Source: Natrialba aegyptia DSM 13077
Lineage (GTDB): Archaea; Halobacteriota; Halobacteria; Halobacteriales; Natrialbaceae
NCBI RefSeq assembly: GCF_000337535.1
Contig: NZ_AOIP01000033.1
Coordinates: forward strand, 1-64,000
Length of the DNA: 64,000 bases
Direction: 5' to 3'
Within the stretch, counting starts at the first letter, position 1. The number at the start of each line of letters is the position of its first letter. Positions 4,515 through 55,837 of the stretch are shown here, in pieces. The position numbers and the translations under genes are program-made. A model generated the notes under the pieces. It made no database searches and had not been told where the DNA came from. It saw only the letters and a program-made list of their open reading frames with translations.

Positions 4515-4595
4515 TGCCCGTCGGTTGGTCCCCCAGCCCGATGAGAATTCCGCTTGGCTCCCACCGGTCGACGCGCCGTCCGCACGAACTCGTTC

Positions 4596-4628
4596 CCGTT
4601 GGCCAACGGTAGATATAAGTCACTACCG
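4596..4628 (+). promoter_or_regulatory. Palindromic operator plus TATA box embedded in an inverted repeat
   Basis: Two symmetrical elements are stacked. CCGTTGGCCAACGG at 4596-4609 is a perfect 14-bp palindrome. Immediately after, CGGTAG (4607-4612) and CTACCG (4623-4628) flank the TATA box GATATAAG (4612-4619). The TATA box predicts a plus-strand transcription start near 4641, exactly where the structured RNA begins. The design looks like a promoter tightly controlled by one or two dimeric repressors. Confidence 0.6.
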
Positions 4629-4640
4629 ATCAACAATTAG

Positions 4641-4735
4641 AACGGAAGCCACGACGCCGGGTACGAAAGTGCCCCGGGTGCTGTAACACCCGAGACGTGG
4701 CTTCTACCATGCAGCTCGAAGCCATGTTTGCGTAC
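4641..4735 (+). ncRNA. Candidate structured RNA: three-way junction with switchable closing helix
   Basis: The predicted start (about 26 nt after the TATA box) opens a 9-bp helix P1 (GAAGCCACG 4645-4653 with CGTGGCTTC 4696-4704). Inside it are P2 (GGGTAC 4659-4664 with GTGCCC 4669-4674, closed by a GAAA tetraloop) and P3 (CGGGTG 4675-4680 with CACCCG 4687-4692, six-nt loop), with no nucleotide between P2 and P3, so they can stack. The 3' strand of P1 can instead pair with 4718-4729 in a 12-bp helix containing two GU pairs. Two mutually exclusive folds are therefore available. The sequence does not match any riboswitch or ribozyme core I know. It could be an independent small RNA or the leader of the gene at 4840. 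Confidence 0.5.
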
Positions 4736-4742
4736 ATTCTCA

Positions 4743-4760
4743 CGGGATATAAACATCCCG
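4743..4760 (+). promoter_or_regulatory. Second TATA box flanked by a 6-bp inverted repeat
   Basis: CGGGAT (4743-4748) and ATCCCG (4755-4760) surround ATAAAC; the TATA element GATATAAAC predicts a start near 4776 and a 64-nt leader for the gene at 4840. The layout copies that of the upstream promoter at 4607-4628, with a different arm sequence. Confidence 0.5.
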
Positions 4761-4839
4761 CACGACTGACGCATCGTTCGATTCGATCAGTAGCAACGCG
4801 TTCTGTCGAGAGGACGGGAGAAACGAGGTGCCGGTCGGC

Positions 4840-5043
4840 ATGACCGACGACACCGGCGCGAGCGATGCGCAAAGCGGCGACACCGGGACGACGGACGATC
4901 CGGAGACCGTCAGCCTCCCGCGCTGTCCCCACTGTGGGACACCCATCACGCAGACCTCCATGATCGGTCCGGGCGAGGCCATCGCCGGCCCCTGTGGCTG
5001 TCGCGTCGCCCCGCCGGACCCCGACCGATCCGGGTCCGACTGA
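4840..5043 (+). CDS. Small CPxCG zinc-finger protein, 67 aa
   Basis: The product begins MTDDTGASDAQSGDTGTTDD, an acidic disordered head, followed by a compact zinc-binding core with CPHCG near residue 29 and GPCGC near residue 52. Haloarchaea encode many such tiny zinc-finger proteins, most of unknown function. The ATG at 4840 has GAGGTG nine nt upstream; a GTG at 4828 is an alternative start that would add four residues. The gene follows the candidate structured RNA and its own TATA box, and no other gene is downstream on this strand. A regulatory link between the RNA and this protein is inference. Confidence 0.65.
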   Translation: MTDDTGASDAQSGDTGTTDDPETVSLPRCPHCGTPITQTSMIGPGEAIAGPCGCRVAPPDPDRSGSD

Positions 5044-54937: not shown

Positions 54938-55837
54938 TCACTCTCTGAGTGAGAGGGGAGCGAGCGTCGCGAACAGAGCCTCCTCCGTTCGCACGACATC
55001 GCTTCCCTGGTACGGAACCGTGTTCAGCCAGAGGTCGAACCCTCGTCCTGGATCGACATCGCCAGATGTGGGTTCGACTCCGTCAGCGTCGTCTGACCGC
55101 GGCGGCCAGGACGACAACGTGTCGACGGCGTCCTCGGATTCGAACTCGAGGATGTCCGGCAGCCCTCTCTCGGGCGCGCCGAAGGCGACGGTCATCCCGT
55201 CGCGCTCGACGCGTCCGGCCAGCGTTCCGAGCCGCCCGACGGTAAGTTCGGTACCGTATCGGGAGGCGGCGATTCGAACGCCGGCGTCCTCACGGCTGAG
55301 TGCTGCCTGTAGGTCCGTCCGCTCGACGGAGAGCCCCGGAAGGGGGTCGTCGACGAGCTTTGCCCGGACCGGTCGTCGCGAAGAGATCCTGATAGTCACG
55401 CGCTCGCCCTCGTCGACCGCCATTTTCGGCGGCACGTTGAGGGAGATCGGGTGTTGCAAGCCGCAATTGACCCGCACGCGTTGATCAGGTCCGACCTCGG
55501 TCACGATCCCTTGTCTTAACGACCCCGAACCGGTAGATTCGGAGCCGGTCTGTGACATGGCGCGGAGCGGCGGCAAGACGCCCGCATACTCCAGTTCGTT
55601 GCGCATCCCCCAGACCTCGTTGCGGAGGTATGGTGGTGTTGCGGCGTATCGCAAGACGGTGCTTACGAACCCGCCGTCGAATCGCCCCGTTTCGCCATCC
55701 CGGTCGGGATAGACGACGAGGCGGTCAGCACGGAAGACCGTCGCCGCGCGGGCGACGTATCCGAGTTTGCGAGTGGCCTCGCGTTTGTCCTCGGCCTCCC
55801 GAGTGAGCGACGACGGCACGAGTACGCTGACGGTCAT
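54938..55837 (-). CDS. SPOUT-superfamily RNA methyltransferase (COG2106)
   Basis: The 299-residue protein belongs to the putative RNA uridine N3 methyltransferase family related to human SPOUT1/C9orf114. It begins MTVSVLVPSSLTREAEDKRE, has the DRLVVYPDRD segment and an inserted OB-like domain (GIVTEVGPDQRVRVNCGLQH), and ends with the knot region (TVAFGAPERGLPDILEFESE to FDLWLNTVPYQGSDVVRTEE). It probably methylates rRNA, which suits its position as first gene of the ribosomal operon. A hairpin lies directly before its start codon, and TATA box CTTTTAAG at 55894-55901 predicts a 34-nt leader. Confidence 0.85.
   Translation of the reverse strand: MTVSVLVPSSLTREAEDKREATRKLGYVARAATVFRADRLVVYPDRDGETGRFDGGFVSTVLRYAATPPYLRNEVWGMRNELEYAGVLPPLRAMSQTGSESTGSGSLRQGIVTEVGPDQRVRVNCGLQHPISLNVPPKMAVDEGERVTIRISSRRPVRAKLVDDPLPGLSVERTDLQAALSREDAGVRIAASRYGTELTVGRLGTLAGRVERDGMTVAFGAPERGLPDILEFESEDAVDTLSSWPPRSDDADGVEPTSGDVDPGRGFDLWLNTVPYQGSDVVRTEEALFATLAPLSLRE

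Follow-up and report, generated by a model that had tools for sequence, protein, structure and literature searches.

Positions 4641–4735 of the stretch of Natrialba aegyptia DSM 13077 DNA analysed here (64,000 nucleotides, hereafter the window) can be folded into two mutually exclusive RNA structures, which raises the question of whether this segment encodes a regulatory RNA and, if so, what such an RNA would control. It is bordered on one side by a PIN-domain gene, beyond which lies an EF-1 exchange-factor gene, and on the other by an ABC transporter gene. The original prediction had described three helices here (P1, P2 and P3) together with an alternative 12-bp helix, and reading the coordinates from the sequence shows all four to be present exactly as described.

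The two folds and the start codon

All features of the leader lie on the forward strand. P1, as read from the sequence, joins GAAGCCACG (4645–4653) to CGTGGCTTC (4696–4704) and is extended by a G4644–U4705 pair, giving a 5′ strand (strand a, GGAAGCCACG, 4644–4653) that pairs with 4696–4705. Between the two strands lie the hairpins P2 (GGGTAC-GAAA-GTGCCC, 4659–4674) and P3 (CGGGTG-CTGTAA-CACCCG, 4675–4692). The 3′ strand of P1, which we call strand b or the switching strand (CGTGGCTTCT, 4696–4705), can instead pair with strand c, the segment before the start codon (GAAGCC followed by AUG at 4724–4726 and the next bases, 4718–4729), from which it is separated by a spacer (4706–4717) that in most copies holds a variable hairpin, P4, and is degenerate here according to an alignment of this genome's copies. 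In this second fold 4693–4704 pairs with 4718–4729 in a helix of 12 bp, G–U pairs included, that encloses the AUG with which a short reading frame, ORF1, begins. The 95-nt RNA has a predicted fold energy of –40.7 kcal/mol compared to –28.2 ± 3.3 kcal/mol for shuffled sequences (z = –3.8, 0 of 200 as low), and for the window copy the P1 fold and the alternative-helix fold are nearly equal (–39.8 and –40.7 kcal/mol, respectively; fold energies here and below refer to 37 °C and standard salt, not molar KCl). Rfam 15 gave no match at this site, either at the gathering score or at E values up to 10, and its three-way-junction core matches no Rfam family.

Upstream of the RNA, a TATA-like box (GATATAAG, 4612–4619) sits within an inverted repeat (CGGTAG...CTACCG, 4607–4628) that is kept in the copies described below. 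In all 14 Natrialbaceae-type loci sampled such a box precedes P1 by 20–42 nt (∼25 nt in the window copy), and transcription is predicted to start ∼25 nt past this conserved element, at 4636–4644. Inverted repeats flanking the TATA-like box, as at 4607–4628 in the window, recur in the promoters. Other types carry locus-specific palindromes near the transcription start (e.g. L183, L213, L216, L238 and L245), with a mean score of 4.65 compared to 3.63 ± 0.12 in shuffled sequences; for the Natrialbaceae type the score is not significant. These palindromes look like private operators and suggest a second, transcriptional layer of control. We also considered a second promoter at GATATAAAC (4746–4754) and rejected it, as this sequence is the stem and loop of a further hairpin, P5 (CGGGAT-ATAAAC-ATCCCG, 4743–4760, within ORF1), whose stem changes compensate each other, with double changes at two pairs, and two loci (L050 and L068) retain the stem without the TATA-like loop.

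Copies across the haloarchaea and covariation of the helices

A nucleotide search with 4590–4760 returned many further sites, in N. aegyptia itself as well as in six genomes of its genus. A covariance model (R1) derived from 59 copies aligned with MAFFT finds 19 copies in the N. aegyptia genome and is matched in 79 of the 121 genomes of the family, with from 1 to at least 27 copies per genome, a copy number that rules out a unique leader of one gene. Its named matches include Natrialba, Natrinema, Halopiger, Halovivax, Halostagnicola, Natronorubrum, Natribaculum and others, which, Haloparvum excepted, we take to be Natrialbaceae. The promoter (GGTAGATATAAGTCACTACC), the RNA and the downstream DNA are common to the copies, some of which are on plasmids; upstream of the promoter the copies are unrelated. 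Weaker multi-copy matches to R1 occur in a second family, Haladaptataceae as judged by its SWIM proteins, and a second model (R2) built in these Haladaptataceae-type relatives finds the leader in 90 of 243 genomes and 36 of 77 genera of the order while also recovering the window copy (4.2e-8). Plasmids with an R2 leader include pHSAL1 of Halobacterium salinarum 91-R6 and plasmids of Halocatena marina and Haloprofundus halobius. A sample of 148 genomes from the phylum gave no R2 match beyond the order, and none of the 8 loci tested matches Rfam. No description of the leader was found in the open-licence literature, outside of which an earlier account is possible; the leader looks like a large, previously undescribed family of natural RNA switches with relatives across the haloarchaea.

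A few copies depart from the common layout. Paired leader or ORF1 copies without a recognised zinc-finger gene occur at L014 (two copies ∼1.1 kb apart) and L128, and L035 and L054 are each accompanied by a second, degenerate copy in which ORF1 is broken. At L039, L041 and L058 AAGCAUG replaces GCCAUG, which breaks the alternative helix; the usual small Cys-rich (CPxCG) gene was not found downstream of these three, and L041 and L058 have a different gene there.

In a sequence-only alignment 97.3% of the cells pair, with double changes in 81 cells compared to 33 in shuffles, and pairing falls to 21–45% when the partner is slid by 1–3 columns. P2 shows double changes at 4 of its 6 pairs. P1 and the b:c helix are nearly invariant in the Natrialbaceae type, so support for them had to come from farther relatives. 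In these other types P3 is 98.1% paired, with a covariation of 0.452 (0.123 in shuffles) and double changes at 5 of 5 pairs (variants GGGUG/CACCC, GCGUG/CACGC, CGGUG/CACCG and GCCUG/CAGGC), and RNAalifold, run on a MAFFT alignment, recovers P1 as well as P3, with 16 of the 17 predicted pairs showing compensatory changes. A tree-based all-pairs test, which like the b:c statistics below is a simple version of our own and not R-scape, ranks P3 and P2 pairs highest in the first alignment and P3 in the second, with P3 pairs scoring higher than any null pair; E 0.05 is passed by only one P3 pair in each alignment, and P2 (columns 38–54) reaches E 0.125. Compensatory changes are therefore present in P2, P3, P5 and, in other types, P1, and the alternative pairing covaries as well. 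Together with the lack of an Rfam match this supports the proposal of the original prediction that the segment is a new regulatory RNA whose two folds exclude each other; the core shows the conserved, covarying fold that is expected of a riboswitch aptamer.

Competition for strand b and the genes behind it

Strands a, b and c change jointly across types, reading GGAAGCC/GGCUUCC/GAAGCC-AUG in one type and GGAAGAAC/GGUCUUCC/GAAGACC-AUG, GGAAAGCC/GGCUUUCC/GAAAGCC, ACAGAC/GGCUGUC/ACAGCC-AUG and GAGAAGC/GCUUCUC/GAGAAGC in others. With strand b taken from the model alignment, which contains no b:c pairing, the complementarity of b to its own c is 15.5 compared to 11.28 ± 0.45 when c is dealt among loci (0 of 2000 as high). 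Under a tree-aware null in which substitutions are re-dealt, 5.61 of 6 b:c pairs are observed compared to 4.62 ± 0.18 (0 of 1000 as high), and the branches of the tree carry 10 events in which both sides of a b:c pair change in a compensating way. Frequently c fits b exactly where strand a has an additional or mismatched base (e.g. L239, L236 and L203), and this speaks against c as a mere duplicate of a. P1 is the favoured fold in 54 of 67 loci; the median difference in its favour is 3.7 kcal/mol, 40 of the 67 loci lie within 5 kcal/mol, and in the few loci where P1 is favoured by more than 10 kcal/mol spontaneous switching is unlikely. The b:c pairing is weak at L255, L223, L224, L235 and L240. 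The position of the start codon is fixed at 10–25 nt past strand b, with the AUG inside the b:c helix in the Natrialbaceae type and the helix abutting the AUG in the other types. The helix over the start region thus shares a strand with the core, as a riboswitch expression platform does with its aptamer.

New beyond the original prediction are the start codon within the helix, ORF1, its overlap with a zinc-finger gene, and the multi-copy state and order-wide spread of the leader. Strand b is followed in most copies by P4 and then by GCC-AUG opening ORF1 (M[FI]AYIL[TP]GYK[RH]PAR...), which in the window is a frame of 39 codons (MFAYILTGYKHPARLTHR..., 4724–4843) whose start lies inside the switch. 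It overlaps as ATGA with ORF2 (4840–5043), which encodes a small Cys-rich protein of 67 aa (CPHCG...GPCGC) for which neither Pfam nor NCBIfam gave a match above cut-off. In 133 of 133 distinct copies ORF1 stays open over 28 codons or more, and a small CPxCG...PCGC protein follows in 94, in 89 of which the ORF1 stop overlaps its start (as ATGA in 55), the arrangement of overlapping or nearly overlapping stop and start codons that characterises termination-reinitiation. Other genes stand downstream with the same ATGA overlap in a few copies (L022, L050 and L068). Variability in ORF1 is even over the three codon positions, which leaves a conserved function of its peptide unsupported and suggests that translation of the frame outweighs its sequence; compensating changes in P5 come at the expense of the ORF1 amino-acid sequence. 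The other two frames show low openness, but fixed motifs (ATGA and ATAAAC) account for part of this, and we do not rely on it as our main argument.

In the other haloarchaeal families the order of P1, P2, P3, switching strand and start codon is retained ahead of genes for SWIM-type and other small Cys-rich proteins. Across all types the downstream genes encode SWIM zinc-finger proteins (by Pfam match or annotation), CPxCG...PCGC proteins, MGCRKCGC... proteins behind a short ORF1, MSTNE...CPxCG proteins, a PadR-like regulator and uncharacterised plasmid proteins; with a minority of exceptions these products are small and rich in Cys. The link to SWIM genes is not universal, as three SWIM loci, on Haloferax, Haloprofundus (L260) and Halobellus plasmids, lack this leader. 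At loci L182–L255 unrelated proteins have a similar N-terminus (MST.ETSGQESS-like) over the first 13 codons past the switched AUG, with a nucleotide motif CAAGAAnnTnnCG around codons 9–13, and the conserved element may therefore extend into the coding region. At L245 the leader is followed by a short frame overlapping, again as ATGA, a gene with a weak match to the RAMP superfamily (E 0.024), perhaps a CRISPR-type effector protein.

A candidate translational switch, its alternatives and its relation to known systems

Comparative evidence for both pairings, for their competition for one strand, for the position of the start codon and for the overlap of the reading frames leads us to consider it probable that the segment is a bistable leader on the mRNA, acting in cis, that governs translation by covering a start codon; its transcription and its action on translation are inferred. 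In such a model transcription would begin just before strand a, and P2 and P3 would form a stable core next to which strand b has two exclusive partners. With b paired to a in P1 the start codon would be free and ORF1 translatable, with b paired to c it would be closed. Ribosomes finishing ORF1 would stop on the ATGA and re-initiate at the zinc-finger gene, and in this way the switch would set the output of both ORF1 and ORF2. Overlapping genes have been shown to be coupled by termination-reinitiation in Haloferax volcanii and E. coli, strictly so in 13 of 14 pairs tested (PMC6728339), and a designed riboswitch that masks the AUG and the Shine-Dalgarno sequence controls translation in Haloferax (PMC8241225). 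In the other haloarchaeal families the switched AUG is mostly that of the main gene itself, encoding a SWIM-type or other small Cys-rich protein. The trigger may be a protein that binds the leader, perhaps the product itself, or else a small molecule, an ion, temperature or salt. We lean slightly towards a still broader reading, in which these leaders would make up a new, order-wide natural class of archaeal translational switches, one core serving varied small zinc-finger and SWIM-type genes at tens of copies per genome in response to one signal.

A sub-case of the switch is autogenous control: the small zinc-finger or SWIM protein, or the ORF1 peptide, would bind P2/P3 and shift the fold. 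Ribosomal-protein leaders are controlled autogenously by binding of the product, the leader here is consistently paired with small Cys-rich proteins of different families, and the private promoter palindromes suggest further feedback control; the product families differ, however, while the core to be bound is alike, and we hold this sub-case only tentatively. It is also conceivable that the RNA has a single functional fold, with P1 simply holding b away to keep the start codon open and with neither signal nor switching. This would agree with P1 being favoured in most loci, but a pure insulator would lose the complementarity between b and c, which is kept through ∼10 double changes, making a single fold unlikely.

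A many-copy, trans-acting small RNA targeting other mRNAs, with the neighbouring gene incidental, would agree with the number of copies, the promoter of their own and the strong conservation of P3. We consider it very unlikely, since the leader occupies a fixed site just upstream of the start codon, 10–25 nt past strand b, its pairing tracks that local start codon, and the downstream genes encode mostly small Cys-rich or SWIM-type proteins. That the copies are a mobile DNA repeat (MITE- or REP-like) whose inverted repeats mimic RNA stems is the least probable of all, even though they are dispersed, multi-copy and also on plasmids: the repeated unit comprises promoter, leader and gene, and the arms of the hairpins change in a compensating way. 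Phage records have no match and one exact core pattern is absent from viral contigs, by which we also reject a phage origin. L034 and L055, in two species, have common flanking DNA, which places these copies at old positions.

With strong evidence for two exclusive folds at the start codon and with members in many culturable haloarchaea, including Halobacterium salinarum 91-R6 with its plasmid copy, this leader family would open the control of translation by RNA in archaea to direct testing, and it would offer an entry point to dozens of small zinc-finger and SWIM-type proteins that are as yet unstudied.

Like translational riboswitches that sequester the start site, the leader has a conserved folded core, a strand common to two exclusive helices and a second helix that covers the start region. 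Unlike them, this candidate switch would occlude the AUG with no Shine-Dalgarno motif seen, and it is archaeal and present in up to at least 27 copies per genome. With autogenous ribosomal-protein leaders (e.g. Rfam L4-Archaeoglobi) it shares a structured RNA immediately ahead of a protein gene, and it differs from them in its many paralogous copies, its varied downstream families and the two-fold competition at the start codon. The window itself contains an L4-Archaeoglobi leader (55389–55488, minus strand; 69.4 bits, cut-off 34.5), a known family present here in a haloarchaeon. The ATGA overlap of ORF1 and ORF2 resembles that of the haloarchaeal termination-reinitiation gene pairs (PMC6728339), from which it is set apart by a first frame that is a very short peptide with its start codon within an RNA switch. 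According to a 2021 paper the fluoride riboswitch is the only natural one shown by experiment in archaea (PMC8241225). The synthetic theophylline switch E in Haloferax described there likewise places a helix over the start region, but it was designed around a theophylline aptamer, whereas the leader presented here is natural.
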